In this document: positions 746 to 43,341 of the stretch, piece by piece
Position numbering within the stretch: the stretch's first letter is position 1
Layout: the number at the start of each line of letters is the position of its first letter
Source of the DNA: Litorivicinus sp.
GTDB taxonomy: Bacteria; Pseudomonadota; Gammaproteobacteria; Pseudomonadales; Litorivicinaceae
Length of the DNA: 64,000 bases
Assembly (NCBI GenBank): GCA_028339155.1
Contig: JAOLBK010000007.1
Span: 62,001 to 126,000, forward strand
Direction of reading: 5' to 3'
Made by a program: the position numbers and the translations under genes
The notes under the pieces: generated by a model
The model's database searches: none
Told to the model about the DNA's origin: nothing
Seen by the model: only the letters and a program-made list of their open reading frames with translations

Positions 746-1794
746 GCAATCAGCAGTTCCATCAGATCTGACTGGCTGACTTCAGGCTCAATGTAAGCAT
801 TGCCCAGCTTATAAAGAAGCACCAAACGCATTTGACCATCAATATTTTTCTTGTCGGCCGCCATATATGTTAAAAAATCTACAGGAGTCATTTTTTTAGG
901 TGGATCCACCGGCAAACCTGCTGATAAGCACAAATAACGCACACGCTCAACGTCGCTTTCACTAAGATGGCCAAGATAGCAAGAGAAGCGCGCAGCCATC
1001 ACCATGCCTACTGACACCGCATCGCCATGTAGCCAATTACCAAAGCCCACATATGCTTCTATTGCATGCCCAAAAGTATGACCAAGATTCAGTAAAGCAC
1101 GCACGCTACCCTCGCGCTCATCCTGGGCAACAATTTCAGCTTTCATCCGACAAGAATGAAAAATCGCATGTTCAAGCACATCTATAGACCCTGATATTAG
1201 TTGATCAATATTTGATTCAATCCAAGCCAAAAATTCGACGTCCCCCAATAGCCCATATTTAATGACCTCAGCAAGACCAGCTGACAATTCTCTTGCCGGC
1301 AACGTCTGTAAAACTGAGGTATCAATTAAAACACCAACTGGCTGATGGAAAGCGCCAATCATGTTTTTGCCCAAGGGATGATTAACCCCAGTTTTACCGC
1401 CAACTGATGAGTCGACCTGCGCTAACAATGTGGTTGGAATTTGAACAAACGGCACACCACGCTGATAAGTCGCTGCGGCAAAGCCGGCCATATCACCGAC
1501 CACACCGCCGCCGAGCGCAATAAATGTTGCATTACGTGAAAAATTGCGGCGAAGCGCTTCCGTATGGATAAGGTCAAGCACCTGCATTGTCTTATGTCTT
1601 TCACCATCAGGCAGAACAACAACAGCTGTCTCGAAGACTGCCAGCGCGCGCTGGACATGAATAAGATAAAGTGGAGCAACGGTCTCATTCGTCACAATCA
1701 GCACCTGACGTCCAGAAACAAAAGTGCTCAGCTCAGACTCTTTCAATAAGTCACTGCCAATTCGAATAGGATAAGTACAGGTCGCCAAATTCAT
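733..1794 (-). CDS. aroB: 3-dehydroquinate synthase
   Basis: Catalyses the second shikimate-pathway step, turning DAHP into 3-dehydroquinate with NAD and a divalent metal in the cytoplasm. The NAD-binding motif GGGVVGDMAG is near residue 95, followed by IPTTLLAQVDSSVGGKTGVN. The C-terminal metal-ligand blocks LNLGHTFGHAIEAY and HGDAVSVGMVMAA are present. The track begins 36 residues earlier, but that extension lies inside aroK in another frame and is not AroB-like. I chose the ATG at 1794 (MNLATCTYPIRIGSDLL), giving 353 aa, close to the family's usual 360. The gap to the aroK stop is 16 nt, so the two are surely co-transcribed. No strong ribosome site is visible, which suggests coupling to aroK translation. 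Confidence 0.95.
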   Translation of the reverse strand: MNLATCTYPIRIGSDLLKESELSTFVSGRQVLIVTNETVAPLYLIHVQRALAVFETAVVVLPDGERHKTMQVLDLIHTEALRRNFSRNATFIALGGGVVGDMAGFAAATYQRGVPFVQIPTTLLAQVDSSVGGKTGVNHPLGKNMIGAFHQPVGVLIDTSVLQTLPARELSAGLAEVIKYGLLGDVEFLAWIESNIDQLISGSIDVLEHAIFHSCRMKAEIVAQDEREGSVRALLNLGHTFGHAIEAYVGFGNWLHGDAVSVGMVMAARFSCYLGHLSESDVERVRYLCLSAGLPVDPPKKMTPVDFLTYMAADKKNIDGQMRLVLLYKLGNAYIEPEVSQSDLMELLIACCN

Positions 1795-1810
1795 GTTTAA
1801 AATGCGCACG

Positions 1811-2335
1811 TCAATGGACCCTCGAAAGCTGTAAAATCTGACGAACCACTGAGGCCGGACTGGCTTTACCGGTTTGAATCTGAATGCTCGAACAAGCTTC
1901 ATAGAGCGGTTCGCGCTCTATGGCCATTTTTCTCAGTTTTTCCTTAGGATCACGTACCTGTAACAGCGGACGATTTTTATCATGCTTAAGCCGCTCAGCC
2001 TGATTTTTTAAATCTACTTTTAACCAAATCACATGGCATCGATACAACCTGAGAACGGCTTGATTTTCAGGCCTAAGCACAACTCCAGCACCTGTCGAGA
2101 TCACAACCTCTTCCATCGGCGCTAATTCTCCCAAAAATTTTACTTCTCGATCACGAAAGCCAGCCTCACCTTCAACATCAAAAATCCAGGGGATATCTGC
2201 ACCACACAGACTCTCAATCTCTTCATCAAGATCCAAATACTGCCATCCCAGCTTGGCGGCCAACAACCTGCCAACTGTCGTTTTCCCAGCGCCAGTGGCA
2301 CCAATTAAAAAAAACTTAGACGAAATGCGGGACAT
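1811..2335 (-). CDS. aroK: Shikimate kinase
   Basis: Phosphorylates shikimate at the 3-hydroxyl with ATP. The P-loop GATGAGKT is at residues 12-19, followed by LDLDEEIE (shikimate-binding Asp region) and GEAGFRDREV, whose Arg belongs to the substrate site. The lid region KNRPLL is near residue 117. At 174 aa it is the normal family length. It heads the aroK-aroB-damX transcript. In many gammaproteobacteria the pilMNOPQ genes lie just upstream; here the upstream neighbour is a divergent ponA. Confidence 0.95.
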   Translation of the reverse strand: MSRISSKFFLIGATGAGKTTVGRLLAAKLGWQYLDLDEEIESLCGADIPWIFDVEGEAGFRDREVKFLGELAPMEEVVISTGAGVVLRPENQAVLRLYRCHVIWLKVDLKNQAERLKHDKNRPLLQVRDPKEKLRKMAIEREPLYEACSSIQIQTGKASPASVVRQILQLSRVH

Positions 2336-2654
2336 GCAACCTCTAATTCACCAAGGATCGAACTATGCCAAAGAATAACAGCTCTAATCAAAAGCCTCGA
2401 TCTCCCATTTCTAAAAAACCAGCCAGACGGCACAAGATCTAAATCTTCGTAAATAACGAAAAGCCCCTAAATTCGCTCTTGCCTTAGCCGAATCGCTCCG
2501 TCTTATGCTAGGGAGAATCGACCTTAAAAAGACCGAGAAGTTTTCAATAGCTTAGAGAAACGCCTACAGAAAAGTATTGGATCGAAAAAACCCAAATCGC
2601 TATTAGACTTTGATTTTAGGTACACTAGATTGATAGAAAATTATTGGTGTAATC
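2336..2654. other. 319-bp divergent intergenic region between aroK and ponA
   Basis: This gap holds the start sites of aroK (minus) and ponA (plus). I find no ORF with coding character, no RNA gene and no long inverted repeat. It must contain promoters for both directions, but no -35/-10 pair with correct spacing was convincing. It is AT-rich towards the ponA side. The pilMNOPQ cluster that often occupies this position is not present, even as a recognisable fragment. Confidence 0.6.
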
Positions 2655-5078
2655 GTGTCCCGAACTCTGCATTTTTTTACTGGCATATCGATAATCCTGA
2701 TGCTTATTGGAACAGGCTCGCTTGCAGGTGTCTATCTATACCTTAAACCAGGACTGCCGGATGCTGAACTACTTAAAACTGTTCAGTTACAGACACCATT
2801 ACAAGTCTTTACTTCAGATGGACAACTACTTGCCCAGTTCGGAGAAAAAAGACGCGAGCCCACTACGATCAATGAAGTCCCACTTAAACTAGTTAGGGCT
2901 TTTTTAGCAGCTGAAGACGATAACTTCCGAAATCATCTGGGAATTGATCCTCTGGGTCTTTTGCGTGCGGCTTGGCAATTAATTTCCAGCGGTCAAATTC
3001 AGTCCGGGGGATCCACCATTACCATGCAGGTAGCGAAAAATTATTTTTTAAGCCATGAACGCACCTTCGCTCGTAAATTCAATGAAATTTTGCTTGCTCT
3101 CGAAATCGAAAAAACACTGACCAAAGACGAAATACTAGAACTTTATTTTAATGTTATTTTTTTGGGCCACCGTGCCTATGGGGTCAATGCCGCTGCACAA
3201 ATCTATTATGGAAAAACAACGAATGATCTAACACTTGCAGAAGCTGCGATGATTGCGGGCCTGCCAAAAGCGCCCTCAAAATACAATCCCATAACGAATC
3301 CAACCCGAGCCAAGGAGCGAAGAGACTGGATATTGGGCCGGATGCTAAAGCTAGGTTTTATAGAAAAATCTGATCTAAATCAAGCGATTAATCAGCCAAT
3401 AACAGCGATGTTGCATGGTGTTCAGCTTGACCTAGCGGCACCTTACGTGGCTGAAGAGGCGAGGCGGGCTGCTCTTGAGATTTTCAATGACCGAGCATAC
3501 ATAGACGGCCTAAGGGTATATACAACCATCAATGGTAAGCAGCAAAAAGCCGCGCAGAATGCAGTCATTAAGGGGTTACTCGAATACGATAAACGTCATG
3601 GCTGGCGAGGAATCAAGACAAAACTTTCTGGGGACAATCTGAATGACTGGAAGTCCCAGCTCGCAAATCATAAGAATATTGGCGCCCTAAAGGCAGCCGT
3701 TGTGGTTGCCGCTACCGAGAATCAGATTTCTGCGATAACTCGCGATAAAGAAATGATTAAAATCGAACCAGCGGGTTTTAACTGGGCGCGAGTTCACCAA
3801 AGTGTCGACAGCATTGGTTCAACTGTTAACGATGCGCGGCGCCTTGTTCAACCAGGCGACCTAATCAGAGTCCTTTATGATCAAGATCTCTGGTGGCTAG
3901 CGCAGCAACCAGAGGTAGAAGCAGGATTTGTGGCACTTGACCCAGAGAACGGAGCAATTCGCGCCATGGTGGGTGGATTCAATTACTTTGAATCTAAATT
4001 CAATCGCGCCACACAAGGAGGTCGATTAGTTGGCTCCGGCATTAAACCACTAATTTATACGGCAGCCTTGGAATCGGGCATGACACCAGCCACTTTAATT
4101 AACGACTCACCCGTAGTATTTGATCAAACAGAGGGGGCAACTGACTGGCGGCCGCAAAACTCTAGCGGAACTTTTTTAGGGCCTACCCGCTTGCGGAAAG
4201 CGTTATATCGTTCTCGTAACCTCGTGTCTGTGCGGCTAGTACGGGAGCTTGGCATCGACAGCGTCATCGATATCGCCGGTCGATTTGGCCTAGATACAGC
4301 AAAGCTGCCGCGCGATCTCTCTATCTCCCTAGGTACCGCATCACTAACACCCCTCGAAATGGCAGAAACATACGCCGTTTTCGCTAACGGGGGATTCAAA
4401 GTAAAGCACCATTTGATTGATCGCATCGAATCAGCAAACGGGACTATACTTTATCAAACTCGCGCAGTTAGCGTGTGTCGAGAAAACTGTGAAAAACGAT
4501 TAGTCTCGATTGACGCAGCATTTGATAACCGACTCCAACCAACTCAATCAGAATTTTTTGATCTTGAGCTCACTGAGCGAATGGCGCCAAGAGTCCTAAA
4601 TCCGCGTATTCATTTTTTAATTGATGATATGTTAAGAGATGTAATTCAGGTAGGCACTGCCAAGAAAGCAAGCAAGCTGGGCCGAAAGGATATTGCGGGG
4701 AAAACAGGGACCACTAATGATCAAGTGGACGCTTGGTTCAGTGGTTATCATCCGACGTTAGTGGCTTCAGTCTGGGTCGGATTTGATCAACCAAAAACAC
4801 TTGGCAGATCAGAATACGGGGGCCGAGCCGCCCTACCAATATGGATCGAATTTATGCGAACTGCGCTAAAAAATATTCCTGAAAGAAATCCAACTCTCCC
4901 AGCAGGGTTGATTGCTACACGCATTGACCCCGATACCGGGGCAAAAGCACTTAACTCAGAAAGCGCATCGATCCGCGAGTTCTTTTTGATCGAAAATCCG
5001 CCAAAAGAACCAGCGCCTAAGGCACTTGTTCCTGCAGACTCTGGCTCCGGAATGTCATCACCTCAACAATTATTTTAA
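2655..5078 (+). CDS. mrcA: Penicillin-binding protein 1A (bifunctional class A PBP)
   Basis: Polymerises and cross-links peptidoglycan at the outer face of the inner membrane. A membrane anchor spans residues 8-30. The glycosyltransferase domain shows EDDNFRNHLG with catalytic Glu near residue 87, GGSTITMQVAKN near 118, and the EILELYFN block near 159. The transpeptidase domain has the SxxK motif SGIK (Ser461-Lys464), SRN (520-522) and KTGTT near residue 680. The region between them includes the OB-like insert typical of PBP1a. The length of 807 aa is normal. The start is GTG at 2655; it places the hydrophobic anchor correctly but has no strong ribosome site. Confidence 0.95.
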   Translation: MSRTLHFFTGISIILMLIGTGSLAGVYLYLKPGLPDAELLKTVQLQTPLQVFTSDGQLLAQFGEKRREPTTINEVPLKLVRAFLAAEDDNFRNHLGIDPLGLLRAAWQLISSGQIQSGGSTITMQVAKNYFLSHERTFARKFNEILLALEIEKTLTKDEILELYFNVIFLGHRAYGVNAAAQIYYGKTTNDLTLAEAAMIAGLPKAPSKYNPITNPTRAKERRDWILGRMLKLGFIEKSDLNQAINQPITAMLHGVQLDLAAPYVAEEARRAALEIFNDRAYIDGLRVYTTINGKQQKAAQNAVIKGLLEYDKRHGWRGIKTKLSGDNLNDWKSQLANHKNIGALKAAVVVAATENQISAITRDKEMIKIEPAGFNWARVHQSVDSIGSTVNDARRLVQPGDLIRVLYDQDLWWLAQQPEVEAGFVALDPENGAIRAMVGGFNYFESKFNRATQGGRLVGSGIKPLIYTAALESGMTPATLINDSPVVFDQTEGATDWRPQNSSGTFLGPTRLRKALYRSRNLVSVRLVRELGIDSVIDIAGRFGLDTAKLPRDLSISLGTASLTPLEMAETYAVFANGGFKVKHHLIDRIESANGTILYQTRAVSVCRENCEKRLVSIDAAFDNRLQPTQSEFFDLELTERMAPRVLNPRIHFLIDDMLRDVIQVGTAKKASKLGRKDIAGKTGTTNDQVDAWFSGYHPTLVASVWVGFDQPKTLGRSEYGGRAALPIWIEFMRTALKNIPERNPTLPAGLIATRIDPDTGAKALNSESASIREFFLIENPPKEPAPKALVPADSGSGMSSPQQLF

Positions 5079-34540: not shown

Positions 34541-34616
<76 letters not shown>

Positions 34617-34652: not shown

Positions 34653-36665
34653 TCAGGCCATTAATATTTCGGTAACAGGGTAAAATCGCCCATCACTTGC
34701 CAGCGTTGCCACTACAGATTTTCGATCAATAATATTTCCAGAGGAACCTAAACCGATAGGGTGGCCATTGGATGGACACATAGCTCTTGCCTCGCGTAGG
34801 GCCGATCGCACTGCAGCTAGGTTATCGGATTGCGCTATTTCGACCGCTTTAGACCACAAACTTATTGCATTGAGAGTCGATATCGCCGGATCAGTAATTG
34901 GAAGGCTGGCGAGAACAGGGTGCTTAGACCACGAGTCAACTAGATCGTCGTTAACATCATTATTTGCAGCTTGTTGAAAATATCCCCAACAAGTAATTAG
35001 CCCTTCAAGACTTGAACAGTCCATTTCGAAAGTGTCTAAATCAGTCGCGTCAAAAGCAATCATCTGGATTTGATCGAGTTCTAAATCCAACACCGCAAAC
35101 TGGCTCAAAAAGCTCCGAAGAGATGGGCCGACTAGTGAAATGCAGAGCAATATGGGCTCTCGGTTGTATGCCTGAGTAATAGCGCGCAACTCGTCTTCGA
35201 ACTCGACAAAGCCGAGTGGATAGTAGCGGCTTGTGATCCTTGAGCCATCCATGCCCGAAGCTTTCAAATACGAACTGATTGTCTCGTTAATGGTGCGCGG
35301 CCAGACGTAATCCGAGCCAATTGTGATGACGCGCGCGTTTTCTGGATGTCTTTTTCTCGCGTAGTCGAGTGCTGGAATGACAGACTTGGTGGGGGGAGCG
35401 TTCAGATACACCACATCATCTGAGAACTCATTACCTTCAAAGTGGAGCGGGTAAAATAAAATACCCTTGCTCGGCGCGAGCGCCGGCATAACCTTTTTGC
35501 GCGCAGCTGACGTCCAACAACCAAAGAAATACTTGCAGTCATTCGCGATAGAGGCTTTGGTACATTCAAAATAGTTATCCCACTTTGATGCAGGATCAGG
35601 CTGATGAATTTCGACGTTTCGCCCAAGAAGGCCCCCTCGCTCATTGATTCCATCCACGGCCATTTTCGCAACAGCATTCAAAGGGGATTCCCAAGGGCTC
35701 ATGAACCCAGTTTCAGAAAACAAACTACAGATTTTGATTGGCAATGGTTTTGGTTTGTGGACAACCTTCTTGGCGCAATCGGGATCTGCGGTGAAATACG
35801 TGGCAAAGAACGTTTTAATCGCCTCTAGGCGAGGCGCGCCCCTTAAATGCTCTGGATAAGACAAAAAGACATCGATTTCACGAGCGAATTTTGCCGATAG
35901 CCCACCAAGGTCGCTTAGCCCGTCATCCCTAATCCAACTCGGCAGAATTCCAATGCCAAGACCTTCTTTGACGGCAACATACATTTCGCTGATCTTGGTC
36001 ACTTCGAGTACGCACTGCCTCGACACATCTATCGACAGAGACAGTTCAGAGAACGCTTGCCTCTGGGGCAAGAGACTCTCCTTCGGGAAAACGATTATCG
36101 GACTTTTTCGTACAGCCAATGGTTGATGTTCCGTGTCGATCTCAAGATCCGCCAGAAGACGATCACTGATAAGAAAATGAAATCCTGACCGAACGATCTG
36201 TTTTTCGATGAGATTTAGATTTTGACTTTTTCGCAGCGAAATATATGCGTCTGGCAGTCGAGAGTGCTCCGCATCCAGCATCTGTTGGTCGACAATCTCA
36301 ATAAGGTACTCAGGAAAGGATCGATAGAAATCAGGTAGTTTTGGCAGCAACCATGTCAATAAAAACTCGTCGTCGACCACAATGCGAATGACTTTATCCG
36401 ATTGTCGAGTTAGCTCCCCGATCGTTGAACCTAAGATTTGAGACTCGTCATAAATTTTCTTGGCAGAAGCGAACACAGCTGCTCCTTCGCTCGTCAGCTC
36501 AACACCGCGCGAATGTCGAATCAACAAAGTCGCGCCAAGTGCTTCTTCAAGATTTTTAACTCTTCGACTGACTGACGAAATATTTGTACGCAACGCCGTC
36601 GCAGCGCGACTGAACGACTTCTTGTCCGCAACGAAATAAAAATACCTGATGTCATCGAGATTCAT
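34653..36665 (-). CDS. LysR-type regulator fused to a UrtA/FmdD-like ligand-binding domain
   Basis: A 670-aa fusion. Residues 1-60 form a LysR winged helix-turn-helix (DDIRYFYFVADKKSFSRAA, then VSRRVKNLEEALG). Residues 90-292 look like a complete LysR inducer-binding domain ending with GLGIGILPSWI and a helical tail. After a short linker, residues 308-670 are a type I periplasmic-binding fold without signal peptide, and closely resemble the divergent binding protein at 36838: both contain FGCWTS, YPLHFEG and GSDYVWPRTIN. The start is the second ATG of the pair (36665), with AGGGA 5 nt upstream; the track's TTG start adds 11 residues. A cytoplasmic copy of the transporter's receptor attached to a DNA-binding protein suggests direct sensing of the imported amide or urea analogue. 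AmiC of Pseudomonas is a known cytoplasmic sensor of this fold, but it works through AmiR, not LysR. No frameshift or stop interrupts the fusion. Confidence 0.9.
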   Translation of the reverse strand: MNLDDIRYFYFVADKKSFSRAATALRTNISSVSRRVKNLEEALGATLLIRHSRGVELTSEGAAVFASAKKIYDESQILGSTIGELTRQSDKVIRIVVDDEFLLTWLLPKLPDFYRSFPEYLIEIVDQQMLDAEHSRLPDAYISLRKSQNLNLIEKQIVRSGFHFLISDRLLADLEIDTEHQPLAVRKSPIIVFPKESLLPQRQAFSELSLSIDVSRQCVLEVTKISEMYVAVKEGLGIGILPSWIRDDGLSDLGGLSAKFAREIDVFLSYPEHLRGAPRLEAIKTFFATYFTADPDCAKKVVHKPKPLPIKICSLFSETGFMSPWESPLNAVAKMAVDGINERGGLLGRNVEIHQPDPASKWDNYFECTKASIANDCKYFFGCWTSAARKKVMPALAPSKGILFYPLHFEGNEFSDDVVYLNAPPTKSVIPALDYARKRHPENARVITIGSDYVWPRTINETISSYLKASGMDGSRITSRYYPLGFVEFEDELRAITQAYNREPILLCISLVGPSLRSFLSQFAVLDLELDQIQMIAFDATDLDTFEMDCSSLEGLITCWGYFQQAANNDVNDDLVDSWSKHPVLASLPITDPAISTLNAISLWSKAVEIAQSDNLAAVRSALREARAMCPSNGHPIGLGSSGNIIDRKSVVATLASDGRFYPVTEILMA

Positions 36666-36682: not shown

Positions 36683-36699
36683 TTTGCGTGATTCGCAAA
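36683..36699. promoter_or_regulatory. Candidate LysR operator (T-N11-A dyad)
   Basis: TTTGCG-TGATT-CGCAAA is a perfect 6-bp dyad containing the T-N11-A core (TGCGTGATTCGCA) typical of LysR-type regulators. It lies 18 bp upstream of the fusion regulator start, suited to autorepression. A second half site, TCGCAAA at 36714-36720, is exactly 21 bp (two turns) from the first one (36693-36699), and GCATT-N7-AATGC at 36793-36809 lies nearer the binding-protein gene. Confidence 0.6.
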
Positions 36700-36837
36700 C
36701 CAGATTATCTTTTTCGCAAATCTCAGGTCAACAATCAATAACTCATTCCTATTTTCATGGCTTCTCTGGGTCACGCATCATCGATAATGTGTGCATTGCA
36801 AACAAATGCTCCCGAATGACTTTAAGAAGGATTAAAC

Positions 36838-38079
36838 ATGATTAATCGTCGTAAATTTCTCCAAGCATCAGGATTGCTGGCGGGCTCTTCTTTGGCTCCT
36901 GCATTCTTGAGTAGTACTTTTGGCGCTGGGCACTCTGGCACCCAGAAGGTAGGTTGCCTTTTCTCATCTTCCGGCGCTATGGCCAACGTAGAGGGGCGCT
37001 TAAACTCAGTCGTTGAAATGGCTGTAGCAGAGCTTAATGCTGCCGGTGGCGTGCTGGGTAAAACAATCGAGACTGTGATTACAGATCCGGCTTCAGACTG
37101 GCCACTTTATGCACAGAATGGCAGACAACTGCTTCTTCAAGAGCAATGCAAGGCGCTTTTCGGTTGCTGGACTTCTGTGTCGCGGAAATCAGTTCTACCT
37201 GTAGTTGAACAAAATGATGGCCTCCTTTACTACCCCTTGCACTTCGAGGGCGAGGAGAATTCAAATAGCGTTGTGTATATGAATTCTCCACCTGCAAGCT
37301 CGGTTCTTCCTGCTCTGGAATACATGATGTCAGAGGACGGTGGCTCCGCCTCGAGATTCTACATGGTCGGCTCAGACTACGTATGGCCTCGGACGATCAA
37401 CAAAATTAACAAAGGATATTTCGCATCCAAAGGAATCACCGAAGAGTCTTATCGCGAAACATACGTGCCATTCGGCTTCAGCAATTTCCAAAACATCATT
37501 AATGATATTCGCGACTTCGCCAATCAGCCCGGTGGAAAACCGACCATTATTCTGACCGTAGTAGGCAACTCGATCCCAGCGTTCTTCAAAGAGATCATTA
37601 ACCAAGGAATTCTCGCCAGCGACATTCCTATCCTCGGACTCGATGTTCTAGAGGCCGATCTTGAAGGACTCGATACAAGCTCTCTCGTCGGTCATTTAAA
37701 TTGTTGGGCCTACCTGCAAAACGTCGAAAATGCAGAGAACACGAAAATCAAAAGTGCGTGGTCACAATTCGTGAGCGCGAACGGGCTCCCATACAGCCCA
37801 GATGTGATGATTGATCCAATGGTATCGGCATATGATGGCGTGCATATGTGGGGCAAAGCTGTCGAGCGCGCGGGTACATTCGAGGTCCCAGCGGTTAAAG
37901 AAGCATTTGATGGAATCACATTTAACTGCCCATCCGGCTATGAGATTTCCATGTCTGGAGAAAATAATTACGTTGCCCGCGGCGTCTTTATCGGATCTGT
38001 AAACGAAAACCAAGGATTTGACATTCTTTGGCAGTCAGATGACACGCCAACACCGGTCCCATATAGCCCGTACGCCTAA
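36838..38079 (+). CDS. Amide/urea ABC transporter substrate-binding protein (UrtA/FmdD type) with Tat signal
   Basis: A 413-aa periplasmic receptor of the branched-chain amide-binding class. The N-terminus INRRKFLQASGLLAGSSLAPA is a twin-arginine signal, so export should use the TatABC in this window. The binding fold shows FGCWTS (about 108), YPLHFEG (about 132) and GSDYVWPRTIN (about 178). From memory, UrtA and AmiC usually have YPxxYEG where this has YPLHFEG, so this is a distinct subgroup. Ligand: urea, formamide or another short amide; the formamidase-like gene downstream and the absence of urease in the window favour an amide. AAGAAGG lies 7 nt before the ATG. First gene of a transcript running to 43341. 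Confidence 0.9.
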   Translation: MINRRKFLQASGLLAGSSLAPAFLSSTFGAGHSGTQKVGCLFSSSGAMANVEGRLNSVVEMAVAELNAAGGVLGKTIETVITDPASDWPLYAQNGRQLLLQEQCKALFGCWTSVSRKSVLPVVEQNDGLLYYPLHFEGEENSNSVVYMNSPPASSVLPALEYMMSEDGGSASRFYMVGSDYVWPRTINKINKGYFASKGITEESYRETYVPFGFSNFQNIINDIRDFANQPGGKPTIILTVVGNSIPAFFKEIINQGILASDIPILGLDVLEADLEGLDTSSLVGHLNCWAYLQNVENAENTKIKSAWSQFVSANGLPYSPDVMIDPMVSAYDGVHMWGKAVERAGTFEVPAVKEAFDGITFNCPSGYEISMSGENNYVARGVFIGSVNENQGFDILWQSDDTPTPVPYSPYA

Positions 38080-38159: not shown

Positions 38160-39812
38160 ATGACTTTTCTTAGGACCTATCTTCTGAGCGTCTTATTGGC
38201 CATCGCTGGCTCCGTGTCAGCAGATGGTCAGGACAGACAAGACACAAGTGCCATAGTTGGCGGGCTCTGTAGCTCTAAACCAACACAGATGAATCAAGCA
38301 CTCAACGCCCTAGGTTCATTCACAGTAGAGTCATCTGATCCCTTAGTCATCGAAAACAACGCTCGATGGGCGTTATGGATTATTTCGGCACTCACCAAGA
38401 AACAACTGGTTTGCTCCCCAACAGGCTCAGGCTTCGTAAAAGGAGAGGATGAACTACGTGAGGCTGTGACACGTGAGCTCACAAAAGTTGATGAGAATGT
38501 AAAGCTCAAAGCCCCTTTTCTGCATCTTCCGGTCAGGCCGACGGCTGAGATTATCGCAGCAACCACTGAAATGATCCTCGCTAGTGTCACAAACGACGCA
38601 GTCAGCGATAAATCGCTCGAATCACTCGATAAAAAGCCTGAACAGGTTAACTCACGGCAATTTAGTTACCTACTTAAGCAATCAAACCTCCCCGAGCGCC
38701 AGGTAAAGCAACTGGAGCTCGTTGAAGCGTATCAATTATTGAGATCCGAAGACCTTACAGACTATTCCACTGCACTTGCGGTCTTGCGTGAAAATGCATC
38801 AAGAAAAAGTCTCACGGCACTTATTGAGATTCAATCTAGCCTTTCACCCGAGGCATCAGGTAGCAAAGTCGAGATGACTTCTAACGCGATAAATGCGATC
38901 GAGACAGAGTTACAAATCGGACAATTTCTATCGGTTTTATATAGCGGCTTGAGCTATTCAAGCATCCTATTCTTAGCGGCGATTGGACTTGCGATTGTTT
39001 TCGGCCTCATGGGGGTAATCAACTTAGCCCAAGGCGAATTCATCATGATTGGCGCCTACATTACTTTTGTGATCCAAGAGTTGCTTGCAAGCTTTGCGTA
39101 CGGCCTTATGCCATTTTATCTCCTGATCAGTATTCCATTCGTTTTCGTACTTACAGGTGGTATTGGCGCAGCCATTGAATACTCTGTAATCCGACATCTC
39201 TACACGCGACCACTCATGACCCTTCTGGCGACTTGGGGGGTCAGTATTTTTCTCGTAAATGCTGTTCGGGTCCTTTTCGGGACTCAAAACCTAGAATTTT
39301 ATGTTCCCGACTATTTGGTGGGTGGCGTCACGCTATTTGGTGACTTCCTTGTGACTTGGAATCGTCTAGCAACAATCGGATTTGCAGTACTCGTTCTTCT
39401 GCTGACCTGGATCCTCGTCAATAAAACTCGATTTGGCGTGAACGTCCGTGCAGTCACGGAAAATCGCAATATGGCCGGCGCTATAGGGATCGACACGAGG
39501 AAAGTCGACGTCTTAAGTTTTGCACTTGGCTCCGGTTTAGCTGGCCTGGCAGGGCTCGCGCTCTCGACCATCTATAACGTCAACCCGACCATGGGAACCA
39601 ACTTCATCGTCGATGCCTTCATGGTGGTTGTCTTAGGGGGAGTAGGAAGCATCTGGGGAACCCTACTTGCTGCCCTATTAGTCGGCATCGTCAATGTCGC
39701 TATCGAGCCAGTTTACGGTGCAGTAGCGGCGAAAGTGATCGTGATGACACTGATTATCGTAGTGATTCAATTCCGGCCCGAGGGCCTCTTCTCATTGAAG
39801 GTCAGAAAGTGA
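38160..39812 (+). CDS. urtB: ABC transporter permease, UrtB type
   Basis: A 550-aa protein with a signal-like N-terminus (LLSVLLAIAGSVSA), a soluble region of about 230 residues, and a C-terminal LivH-like membrane domain of about 290 residues starting LSVLYSGLSYSSILFLAAIGLAIVFGLMGVINLAQGEF. The extra N-terminal domain is characteristic of UrtB rather than plain LivH. The cytoplasmic coupling segment is VRAVTENRNMAGAIGIDTRKV. In this locus it should pair with the following permease. The symbol follows family resemblance, not a proven urea substrate. Confidence 0.85.
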   Translation: MTFLRTYLLSVLLAIAGSVSADGQDRQDTSAIVGGLCSSKPTQMNQALNALGSFTVESSDPLVIENNARWALWIISALTKKQLVCSPTGSGFVKGEDELREAVTRELTKVDENVKLKAPFLHLPVRPTAEIIAATTEMILASVTNDAVSDKSLESLDKKPEQVNSRQFSYLLKQSNLPERQVKQLELVEAYQLLRSEDLTDYSTALAVLRENASRKSLTALIEIQSSLSPEASGSKVEMTSNAINAIETELQIGQFLSVLYSGLSYSSILFLAAIGLAIVFGLMGVINLAQGEFIMIGAYITFVIQELLASFAYGLMPFYLLISIPFVFVLTGGIGAAIEYSVIRHLYTRPLMTLLATWGVSIFLVNAVRVLFGTQNLEFYVPDYLVGGVTLFGDFLVTWNRLATIGFAVLVLLLTWILVNKTRFGVNVRAVTENRNMAGAIGIDTRKVDVLSFALGSGLAGLAGLALSTIYNVNPTMGTNFIVDAFMVVVLGGVGSIWGTLLAALLVGIVNVAIEPVYGAVAAKVIVMTLIIVVIQFRPEGLFSLKVRK

Positions 39813-39840: not shown

Positions 39841-40923
39841 ATGTTTCAAGCAAGTGAAAAGGCGGGAATACTGCTCGCGCTTTGTGGGCTCCTCCTAATC
39901 GGTGCAACATCGCTAGGCTTCAGCACTTCGCAATATGCAATGAACCTTATTGGACAAATTGCTGCATTCGCACTGCTAGCACTGTCACTTGATCTGCTCT
40001 GGGGCTTCTGTGGAATATTAAGTTTAGGCCATGGGCTCTTCTTCGCGATCGGTGGCTATTTGGTAGCCATGCATCTTGTAAAAGTTACGTTTGACGCGAC
40101 AGGTACCCCACCCGATTTTATGTTGTTTATGGGCTGGGACAGCCTTCCTTTTTACTACTTCCAACTCGACAGCATTGCCTACCTAATCGTCGCAATCGCA
40201 GCAGTCACAACAGTCGTTTCTTTTGTCTTCGGATACGTGTCTTTTAGGTCACGCGTTACGGGCGTTTACTTCGCAATCATCACGCAGGCGCTGGTTTATA
40301 TGGTGATGCTTTACATGTTTAGAAACGACTCCGGCTTCGGCGGGAACAACGGCATGACAGGTTTTAAAGAGATATTTGGCATGCCGGCCAGCGGTAGCAC
40401 CACCGCAGCTTTTCTTTGCGGCGGATCACTCGCCACGCTTGGATTATGCCTGTATGGCTGCAAAAAGCTCGTCGACTCCCCGATTGGACAATTTATGCTC
40501 GCTGTTCGAGAGGATGAATCGAGGCTCAGATTCCTCGGCGTGAATACCGTCCATATCAAGCTTATAGCGTGGTGCATCTCAGCAATCCTTGCAGCGATGG
40601 CTGGATTTCTCTACGTGCCGCAAGTTGGCATTGTGAATCCAACGATCTTGAGCCCCGAACTGTCAATAGAGATTGCTGCTTGGGTGGCCCTAGGCGGCCG
40701 AGGCTCTCTCTTGGGACCTATTCTCGGCGCAGTTGTGATAAGCGGCCTAAAATTCATCCTAACCGGTCTAGCTCCTGATTTATGGCCTTTCATTCTCGCC
40801 ACATTAATTATTTGCGTCGTAATTTGGTCTCCAAATGGCCTAGCAGATACCAGCTCACATGTGGCTTCATTTTACAGGCGCTTAGGCTCTCTCACGTCGA
40901 TCAAAGGGAGAAGTCAACCATGA
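39841..40923 (+). CDS. urtC: ABC transporter permease, UrtC type
   Basis: A 360-aa LivM-like permease with 8-10 hydrophobic helices. Conserved parts are LDLLWGFCGILSLGHGLFFAIGGYL, the coupling-loop stretch LAVREDESRLRFLGVNT, and AGFLYVPQVGIVNPTI. It lies 28 nt after urtB. Its last codons overlap the ATPase start by 4 nt (ATGA), so I reject the longer track start for the next gene. Confidence 0.88.
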   Translation: MFQASEKAGILLALCGLLLIGATSLGFSTSQYAMNLIGQIAAFALLALSLDLLWGFCGILSLGHGLFFAIGGYLVAMHLVKVTFDATGTPPDFMLFMGWDSLPFYYFQLDSIAYLIVAIAAVTTVVSFVFGYVSFRSRVTGVYFAIITQALVYMVMLYMFRNDSGFGGNNGMTGFKEIFGMPASGSTTAAFLCGGSLATLGLCLYGCKKLVDSPIGQFMLAVREDESRLRFLGVNTVHIKLIAWCISAILAAMAGFLYVPQVGIVNPTILSPELSIEIAAWVALGGRGSLLGPILGAVVISGLKFILTGLAPDLWPFILATLIICVVIWSPNGLADTSSHVASFYRRLGSLTSIKGRSQP

Positions 40924-41687
40924 CCACGAAACAAGCACTCTATGTATCTGGTCTCAATGTGTCCTTCGGTAATTTCGCCGTGTTGAAGAATTTGAGTTGG
41001 ACCGTCGACTTTGGTGAGGTACGGGGAGTAATCGGCCCGAATGGAGCGGGAAAAACCACGCTTTTGGACTCGCTTACTGGTAAGACTAGATATCAAAGCG
41101 GCGATATCTATGTCAAAGACACCGTTTCCATAAAAAACCTGACGGAAATTGAAATTGCCAAGCTAGGTATTGGACGAAAATTCCAAAAGCCCAGCGTCTT
41201 CAGCGGCCTTTCTGGTTTCCAAAACTTAGAGATTGCGCTAAGAGCTGGTCATAGCAGATCAATTTACCAACCGAAACTCACATCTCGGCAGAGAGAGAAA
41301 ATCCACGAGACGAGTGAGCTAATCGGTCTCAGTTCCGAGCTCTCTCGAAATGCCGGAACACTGGCACATGGTCAGAAACAGTGGTTAGAAATAGGAATGC
41401 TCATTATTGCCGAGCCATCGGTGATACTTCTTGACGAACCAGTCGCAGGCATGAACAGCGAAGAACGAGGAAAAACGGCTGAACTCATTAGCAATATACG
41501 CGGCCCTAACATTGCCGTAGTTGTTGTAGAACATGACATGGAATTTGTCGGGCAAGTCTGCGACACAGTCACCGTACTTCATGATGGTAGGGTGATGATT
41601 GAGGGTCCAATGGGGGTGGTCCAAGCAGATCCACAGGTCATCGATGTGTACCTAGGCAAGGAGGCTGCAAGTGCTTCAAGCCATTAA
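40920..41687 (+). CDS. urtD: ABC transporter ATPase, UrtD type
   Basis: ATPase of 255 aa. Walker A is GPNGAGKTT near residue 40, the signature LAHGQKQWLEIGMLI replaces the usual LSGGQ (the H variant is normal for UrtD/LivG), Walker B is VILLDEPVAGM, and the switch His is VVVEHDMEF. The track extends it 46 residues upstream into urtC; the ATG at 40920 with AAAGGGAG upstream is preferred. It overlaps urtE by 17 nt. Confidence 0.9.
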   Translation: MTTKQALYVSGLNVSFGNFAVLKNLSWTVDFGEVRGVIGPNGAGKTTLLDSLTGKTRYQSGDIYVKDTVSIKNLTEIEIAKLGIGRKFQKPSVFSGLSGFQNLEIALRAGHSRSIYQPKLTSRQREKIHETSELIGLSSELSRNAGTLAHGQKQWLEIGMLIIAEPSVILLDEPVAGMNSEERGKTAELISNIRGPNIAVVVVEHDMEFVGQVCDTVTVLHDGRVMIEGPMGVVQADPQVIDVYLGKEAASASSH

Positions 41688-42363
41688 CATTAATCAATTC
41701 TATGACAGCTCCCATTGCTTGAAAGACCTTTCGTTTAGCATCGCGGATAAACAATGTCTGGCAGTACTTGGCCTGAACGGCGCGGGCAAAACGACCCTCG
41801 CAAAGACTCTAATGGGTATAGAGCCCATGCGATCCGGAACACTACTGTTGGATGACATTGATTTAGGACGGCTCCCTTCGTATCGACGGGTCGAGCTAGG
41901 ACTGGGGTACGTCCCTCAAGGTAGAGAAATCTTTAGTGGTTTAACCGTAGAAGAAAATCTGTCGATTGGAGAACGAATTGGCAATAACTCTCCAAGCAGA
42001 ATAAGCCGAACCGAGATTCACGAGATTTTTCCTGTCCTGAGGGAAATGCGGTCTCGGCGTGGCGGCGATCTGTCCGGCGGCCAACAGCAACAGCTCAGTA
42101 TCGCTCGAGCACTTATGACAGGCCCCTCGGTTTTAGTTCTTGATGAGCCTACAGAAGGTATTCAGCCATCAATCGTCAGTGATATTCGGCGCTTAATTCT
42201 TGAGCTCAAAGGCCAATTTACGATCATCTTAATCGAGCAGTACATCGACTTTGCTAAAGAGGTCTGCGATGAATTTATCGTTCTTACGCGGGGAGAAATT
42301 GGGGCGGCAGGTCAAGCATCTGAATTGAATTCAAACATCGAAAAACAGTTTTTAAAAGGTTAG
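41671..42363 (+). CDS. urtE: ABC transporter ATPase, UrtE type
   Basis: ATPase of 230 aa. Walker A is GLNGAGKTT, the signature LSGGQQQQLSIARAL, and Walker B VLVLDEPTEGIQPSI, the last being typical of UrtE/LivF. The start is GTG with an ideal AAGGAGG 6 nt upstream, located inside the end of urtD. It is followed 9 nt later by the hydrolase gene. Confidence 0.92.
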   Translation: MLQAININQFYDSSHCLKDLSFSIADKQCLAVLGLNGAGKTTLAKTLMGIEPMRSGTLLLDDIDLGRLPSYRRVELGLGYVPQGREIFSGLTVEENLSIGERIGNNSPSRISRTEIHEIFPVLREMRSRRGGDLSGGQQQQLSIARALMTGPSVLVLDEPTEGIQPSIVSDIRRLILELKGQFTIILIEQYIDFAKEVCDEFIVLTRGEIGAAGQASELNSNIEKQFLKG

Positions 42364-42372
42364 GAGTTTTCT

Positions 42373-43341
42373 ATGACAAACATGAAAATTGACGCCGCCC
42401 CAGCCAATATCCATTGGGGTTATTTTGACGCACAACTGGCTCCTGTCGCTGAAATCGAGTCAGGCAGCACGGTCGTCATCGAAACCCTCCCCGCAGCTTT
42501 CCCTGAGGATTTGCCAGCAGACACAAGTCTTCTCACGCCAGACCATATCAAAGCCCTAAAAGAAGTGCGTCTGGGCGGTCCAAGTGATCGGTTTGTGAAC
42601 GGGCCAATCGGGCCTCACATGTTAACGGGGCCGATCTATGTCAAAAATGCGAAACCCGGTGATGTATTGCAAGTCGACATCCTCGATATTGAATTAAAAC
42701 AGGATTGGGGATTTTCTGCGATCCTACCAAATCTCGGAACGCTACCCGATGAATTCACTAACTATCAAAGAAAGCACACCCTAATAGATAGGCAAAGCAA
42801 AACTGGTAAATGTCCCTGGGGATCAGTTGTAGACCTCGACCCGTTCTTCGGGATTATGGCAGTTGCACCTCCCCCTGAATGGGGTCCCGTCGGCACACCC
42901 GAGCCCCGAGCATTCGGCGGGAATATGGATAACAAAGATCTGAGGCCCGGAACAACACTTTATTTACCCATTTTTGCCGAAGGGGCTCTATTTTCTGTAG
43001 GTGACGGGCACGGGAAACAAGGACATGGTGAAGTTTGTATCACCGCACTAGAGACCGCACTTACCGGAACATTTCGCCTGACTGTTCGTAAAGATCTCGA
43101 AATTGCCATGCCCTACGCAGAGACGGAAGACTGGTTCTTAGCGATGGGATTCAATATGAGCCTCGATGAAGCCGCCAAACAAGCGGTTCGCGAGATGCTG
43201 AAAATCGTGCAAGCCAACACAAGCATGGATCGAGACGACGCCTACATGTTGTTAAGCATGGTTGCTGACCTGCACGTCACACAACTTGTCGACATAAACA
43301 AAGGGGTTCATATGATTTTAGAGAAGAAATATCTGCCTTAG
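42373..43341 (+). CDS. fmdA: Acetamidase/formamidase family hydrolase
   Basis: A 322-aa enzyme of the FmdA/AmdA family, which releases ammonia from formamide, acetamide or related short amides. Recognisable blocks are NGPIGPHMLTGPIYVKNAKPGDVLQVDIL, RAFGGNMDNKDLRPGTTLYLPI and the metal-site-like GDGHGKQGHGEVC. No signal peptide is visible, so it acts in the cytoplasm on what the upstream importer brings in. Methylophilus methylotrophus has a comparable set, fmdA with the fmdDEF transporter. AGGAG precedes the ATG. The true substrate cannot be told from sequence. Confidence 0.88.
   Translation: MTNMKIDAAPANIHWGYFDAQLAPVAEIESGSTVVIETLPAAFPEDLPADTSLLTPDHIKALKEVRLGGPSDRFVNGPIGPHMLTGPIYVKNAKPGDVLQVDILDIELKQDWGFSAILPNLGTLPDEFTNYQRKHTLIDRQSKTGKCPWGSVVDLDPFFGIMAVAPPPEWGPVGTPEPRAFGGNMDNKDLRPGTTLYLPIFAEGALFSVGDGHGKQGHGEVCITALETALTGTFRLTVRKDLEIAMPYAETEDWFLAMGFNMSLDEAAKQAVREMLKIVQANTSMDRDDAYMLLSMVADLHVTQLVDINKGVHMILEKKYLP

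Follow-up and report, generated by a model that had tools for sequence, protein, structure and literature searches.

Regulators of the LysR type, which are among the largest bacterial regulator families, normally carry one ligand domain. In the 64,000-nucleotide stretch of DNA analyzed here (the window), taken from a genome of the marine gammaproteobacterial genus Litoricola (1.88 Mb, 34 contigs), one long frame appears to join a whole LysR regulator to a receptor of the kind that serves urea and short-chain amide ABC transporters. This raises the question of whether such a protein is real and, if it is, what a regulator with two different binding folds would sense.

The frame lies on the minus strand (36665–34653), runs from an ATG at 36665 to a stop codon at 34653–34655 and comprises 670 codons with zero internal stops; the initial annotation had claimed the uninterrupted 670-codon frame but named no strand. 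The opposite (plus) strand across the gene is stop-rich. Alignment with relatives backs this ATG as the start, although the immediately preceding codon, also an in-frame ATG, and a TTG at 36698 are other possible starts. The gene encodes, all on the minus strand, a LysR-type winged helix-turn-helix (HTH; residues 3–61, 36483–36659; Pfam HTH_1, 3.5e-18, 65.8 bits, above the Pfam cut-off of 26.6), a LysR effector-binding domain with a type II periplasmic-binding-protein (PBP) fold (residues 89–287, 35805–36401; LysR_substrate, 8.3e-11, 42.1 bits versus a cut-off of 28), a polar and variable junction linker of low hydropathy and low identity (residues 288–309, 35739–35804), and a type I PBP domain (residues 310–665, 34671–35738; Peripla_BP_5, 7.8e-72, 242.8 bits versus a cut-off of 27). 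The effector domain is essentially complete (profile positions 4–204 of 209), and the receptor domain spans profile positions 1–346 of 363. Pfam agrees with the earlier reading of a LysR HTH and an apparently complete inducer domain followed by a UrtA/FmdD-like domain.

The HTH, linker helix and LysR_substrate domain are shared with regulators such as CbnR and BenM, the best-scoring known members being choline-sulfate or GcvA-like. However, these proteins usually have ~300 residues and end after the effector domain, whereas the fusion adds a type I domain of 355 residues and so reaches twice that length. PDB relatives of that domain are 8tg1, the urea receptor UrtA (7s6e, 8hic) and the amide sensor AmiC (1pea), and it scores 226.4 bits against the NCBIfam UrtA model, below the cut-off of 492.75. 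An AlphaFold model of the whole protein was poor (mean pLDDT 58, pTM 0.48, from an alignment of six sequences).

A long frame of this kind could also arise from two genes merged by a sequencing or assembly error, or it could encode a transmembrane regulator with a periplasmic sensor. Complete fusions of 663 residues, each in one uninterrupted frame and 44–46% identical to the window protein, are present in three other Litoricola genomes (G021, G012 and G019, the stops flagged in the last being the natural gene end), and two further copies (G018 and G002) are interrupted solely by contig ends. In total, the fusion is present in 6 of the 22 Litoricola genomes examined, and the junction (residues 288–309) is open in every one of the six; the stop or frameshift at about residues 290–308 by which the initial annotation would have split the gene is absent from these independent genomes. 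An assembly error is rejected because independent genomes at this level of protein divergence carry the same open junction. Among the three genomes of a second fusion clade, dN/dS is 0 for the HTH (dN = 0), 0.16–0.19 for the LysR effector domain, 0.25–0.42 for the linker, which is under the weakest purifying selection of the parts, and 0.065–0.093 for the receptor domain. The low dN/dS in every domain rules out a frame that spans two genes and is open by chance. Comparison of the two fusion clades gives identities of 59% in the HTH, 33% in the effector domain, 15–25% in the linker and 53% in the receptor domain. The dN/dS profile is that of a genuine multi-domain protein with a loose linker; the LysR–receptor fusion exists as such and has been conserved across related species.

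The second form of the alternative, a membrane-anchored sensor, is ruled out by the lack of a membrane-length hydrophobic segment at the junction, where the mean hydropathy of every 19-residue window stays at or below 1.0 in all four orthologues analyzed. No observation spoke for either form, and we regard the chance that the fusion is an artefact or a transmembrane regulator as negligible. The protein also lacks a signal peptide, and Pfam finds no ANTAR domain in it. Separate translation of the receptor part from an internal start has little in its favor: the sole candidates are TTG at codon 308, TTG at 315 and an ATG at 322 that already lies within the domain, and no clear ribosome-binding site was seen.

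What the fusion might control is indicated by its neighborhood, which places it divergent to a receptor–UrtBCDE–hydrolase operon on the plus strand, with 172 bp between them; such a position relative to a presumed target operon is shared with other LysR-type regulators. The operon starts with an FmdD/UrtA-like substrate-binding protein (36838–38079; Peripla_BP_5, 9.9e-113) that has a Tat-like signal, MINRRKFLQASG, and scores 388.6 bits against the NCBIfam UrtA model (cut-off 492.75, not reached). It continues with a UrtB-like permease (38160–39812; TIGR03409, 360.8 bits, above cut-off), a UrtC-like permease (39841–40923; TIGR03408, 332.5 bits, above cut-off), a UrtD-like ATPase (40782–41687; TIGR03411, 301.5 bits, slightly below cut-off) whose domain starts at residue 52, so that the true start probably lies within the listed frame, and a UrtE-like ATPase (41671–42363; TIGR03410, 278.1 bits, slightly below cut-off). 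The UrtB-like protein has an N-terminal extension of ~250 residues, which is also found in G021. The last gene encodes a short hydrolase of the acetamidase/formamidase family (322 residues, 42373–43341; Pfam FmdA_AmdA, 5.8e-33) that reaches 68.4 bits against the NCBIfam formamidase model with its cut-off of 500. This protein is matched in two pieces and is operon-linked in five Litoricola genomes, a similar gene terminates an operon on an Agrobacterium plasmid, and it probably represents a distinct amidase subfamily.

The six Litoricola genomes (of 22) with the operon receptor are exactly the six with the fusion, the contig of G019 ending inside the operon receptor gene. A full-length acetamidase/formamidase gene directly follows the fusion in the same direction in G021 (L020 3653–4975) and G018 (G018:C15:2115–3233), and full-length genes of this family occur in fusion-less Litoricola genomes too. 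On the Agrobacterium plasmid, the closely similar operon is adjoined by an unfused ROK regulator, and the transport operon is therefore more widespread than the fusion. The ROK-family gene (L068 7467–8558) is likewise divergent to its operon, so that different regulator families stand beside the same operon. Clustering of transporter, hydrolase and regulator is also known from Methylophilus methylotrophus, in which fmdCABDEF combines an amide transporter, formamidase and regulator in one substrate-induced cluster (PMC10781810), although the regulator there is not described as a LysR–receptor fusion.

The binding pocket gives the most direct view of a possible ligand. In Prochlorococcus UrtA, nine residues surround urea, the urea site has eight strictly conserved residues, and changes at Q144 or N246 strongly reduce or abolish urea binding (PMC10392092). 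At the nine corresponding columns, the fused domain has W384, S386, Y405, H408, E410, Y453, W455, V512 and D539. These residues are identical in both fusion clades, match the operon receptor in nine of nine positions and recur in its relatives from Agrobacterium and two other proteobacteria. UrtA differs from both the fused domain and the operon receptor at four of the columns (Q144 to H, F192 to W, N246 to V and S274 to D), and the strictly conserved UrtA set is broken in the fused domain at Q144, N246 and S274. Urea is thus an unlikely ligand, because Q144 and N246, which are needed for urea binding by UrtA, are both replaced. A second receptor in the same genome (G000:C12:151339–152445) has a much higher Peripla_BP_5 score of 538.6 bits and keeps all UrtA urea-site residues except for Y in place of F192; urea uptake and an amide-type system seem to coexist in this genome.

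Conservation of the fused domain peaks around the pocket. Identity between the two fusion clades is 93% near it and 47% in the rest of the domain, and the corresponding values between fusion and operon receptor are 66% and 30%. From this pattern, the sensor domain and the transporter receptor probably bind the same ligand, although common ancestry of the two receptor clades, and not a retained ligand, could account for part of the shared residues. These numbers also bear on the idea that the receptor domain does not bind a ligand at all and is a protein-contact module, for example docking on the permease or ATPase to sense transporter activity. Contacts between transporters and regulators exist in other systems, and an identity of just 30% to the operon receptor outside the pocket would be in line with such a role; against this, conservation is concentrated at the pocket, all contact residues are retained, and the docking site of the operon receptor is on the periplasmic side, out of reach for a cytoplasmic domain. 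We consider a contact module very improbable.

Rather than urea, the probable ligand is a short amide or a related small C–N compound handled by the operon hydrolase; short amides are favored because acetamidase/formamidase-family hydrolases are found at the locus. AmiC of Pseudomonas, which works with AmiR, uses the same receptor fold as a cytoplasmic amide sensor, and amide binding is predicted for the fused domain. S85, Y104, E109 and Y150 of AmiC are kept, but P107 and T233 correspond to H408 and D539, and the pocket is not that of AmiC. The analogy to AmiC and AmiR drawn in the initial annotation is apt with regard to cytoplasmic sensing by this fold; it does not extend to the output, since AmiC, a protein of its own, governs an RNA-binding antiterminator, whereas the receptor studied here shares one chain with a DNA-binding LysR head. 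Neither UrtA nor AmiC has this pocket, and its conservation is also compatible with a shared non-amide ligand, such as guanidine, a carbamate or some other small nitrogenous molecule. The aspartate D539, at a position occupied by serine in UrtA, might accommodate a cationic ligand, and the operon hydrolase is short and divergent, far below the formamidase cut-off. Nevertheless, acetamidase/formamidase-family genes occur both within and beside the locus, and no guanidine or other metabolite riboswitch was found between 28000 and 46000, and we hold a cytoplasmic sensor for a non-amide ligand to be possible but rather unlikely.

Taken with the divergent operon, these features point to a one-component regulator that resides in the cytoplasm, detects imported substrate with a captured receptor domain and activates the receptor–UrtBCDE–hydrolase operon, a reading that we consider likely. 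A cytoplasmic location is supported by the missing signal peptide and membrane segment of the fusion next to the Tat-like signal of the operon receptor. The LysR HTH would bind within the 172-bp divergent intergenic region. There, a candidate operator, a T-N11-A-like dyad of the kind seen with LysR regulators (36683–36699, TTTGCG-TGATT-CGCAAA), precedes the fusion start codon by 17 nt, and a second CGCAAA half-site lies at 36715–36720, spaced from the first by 21 bp, or two helical turns. By itself the dyad is not significant, and shuffled sequences often contain such dyads. In the aligned divergent regions of four orthologues, however, the flanks ATTTGC and CAA-CC are invariant at the same place and spacing, 16–17 nt upstream of the start; AACAAG replaces the second CGCAAA at the aligned place in the other species. 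We find this positional conservation suggestive of a LysR operator.

In the steps that would follow, the C-terminal type I domain, which has no export signal, would bind the imported substrate inside the cell, as its pocket identity with the operon receptor suggests. Closure of the domain on its ligand would be relayed via the LysR effector domain, which may serve mainly for dimer or tetramer contacts, to the DNA-binding head, and the head would then turn on the receptor–UrtBCDE–hydrolase operon in the manner usual for LysR regulators of divergent operons.

The effector domain could do more than this. Should it detect a second signal, such as a nitrogen-status metabolite or the hydrolysis product, alongside the imported amide sensed by the receptor domain, the protein would integrate two inputs; the initial annotation had raised this possibility of two signals. 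LysR regulators with two effectors are known from work on BenM and CatM (see also PMC6628147), and the effector domain of the fusion is both essentially complete and under purifying selection. On the other hand, it is the fastest-diverging folded part of the protein (33% versus 53% identity for the receptor domain between clades, with dN/dS about twice that of the receptor domain), a fold retained for oligomerization would give the same pattern of divergence, and nothing indicates a particular second ligand or ties the domain to an internal nitrogen signal. A mainly structural, oligomerization or coupling role accounts for this faster divergence no less well than a second ligand site would. 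We consider a dual-input regulator a minority reading, and it is similarly doubtful that two different PBP folds in one chain integrate two ligands after a LysR regulator captured a transporter-type receptor domain in a single marine lineage.

The one-component regulator with a single captured sensor has natural parallels in the LacI/GalR and XylR (AraC)-type proteins, which also use a type I receptor fold as a cytoplasmic sensor, but these belong to other DNA-binding families and have sugar-type receptors and a single ligand domain. The periplasmic receptors UrtA and FmdD share Peripla_BP_5 with the fused domain, which differs in lacking a signal peptide, in being fused to LysR and in the four pocket positions that set it apart from UrtA. 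The closest design is a synthetic one, in which the CbnR DNA-binding domain was fused to a periplasmic binding protein to give an intracellular sensor (PMC6079105). This chimera likewise combines a LysR-family DNA-binding domain with a solute-binding protein; unlike the natural fusion, it is man-made, uses the DNA-binding domain without the whole LysR, has a benzoate receptor and carries a LacI oligomerization tail. In the literature we found such man-made chimeras only (PMC6079105) and no natural protein combining LysR with a type I receptor.

Full-length fusions were found nowhere outside Litoricola in draws of 392 genomes from the order, 369 from the class and 399 from the phylum (overlapping draws, with the best candidates per genome scored), the full-length matches of the order draw being confined to Litoricola. 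There was no match at 80% coverage among 72,556 plasmid records and none in a scan of IMG/VR; a pattern scan of 84,980 species, with sensitivity limited to close relatives, returned Litoricola alone. Five long-frame LysR matches elsewhere (L079–L082 and L084) have no receptor domain in the same frame. The initial annotation had supposed that the architecture was undescribed; we found no earlier description of a LysR–amide-receptor fusion in the literature and sequence collections searched, and a cytoplasmic LysR protein with type II and type I binding folds and an amide-type pocket is supported.

Regarding its origin, the fused receptor domains group together in a well-supported clade (100/100), apart from operon receptors and UrtA, although long branches make its exact placement unsure; identity is 33–37% with operon receptors versus 29–34% with UrtA. 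A recent duplication of the neighboring receptor is ruled out by this separate clade. The LysR half reaches ~140 bits against unfused LysR proteins of other proteobacterial classes and at most ~100 bits within its own order, and the nearest relatives found for the operon receptor outside the genus are likewise from other classes, which suggests that the module was acquired from outside the lineage. A tRNA-Phe gene (34541–34616) lies directly downstream of the fusion gene, and the module of G012 is near a tRNA-Pro gene (L022 10295–10371). These differing tRNA neighbors and the patchy presence (6 of 22) suggest a mobile island; the G+C content of the module does not stand out. In another proteobacterium (L081), a LysR relative (1561–2820, minus strand) is divergent to an unfused Peripla_BP_6 receptor gene (plus strand, from ~2962 onward), a layout that could be a precursor of such a fusion.

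The uptake system that this regulator presumably controls uses a receptor of the same type, so that one molecule would be recognized through one kind of pocket by both sensor and transporter. The fusion parallels, in nature, the synthetic biosensors that join a receptor to a DNA-binding domain; it provides a scaffold ready for building amide biosensors and allows tests of how a LysR oligomer becomes coupled to an added ligand domain. In this marine bacterium, a receptor type of amide uptake probably serves as an intracellular nutrient sensor.
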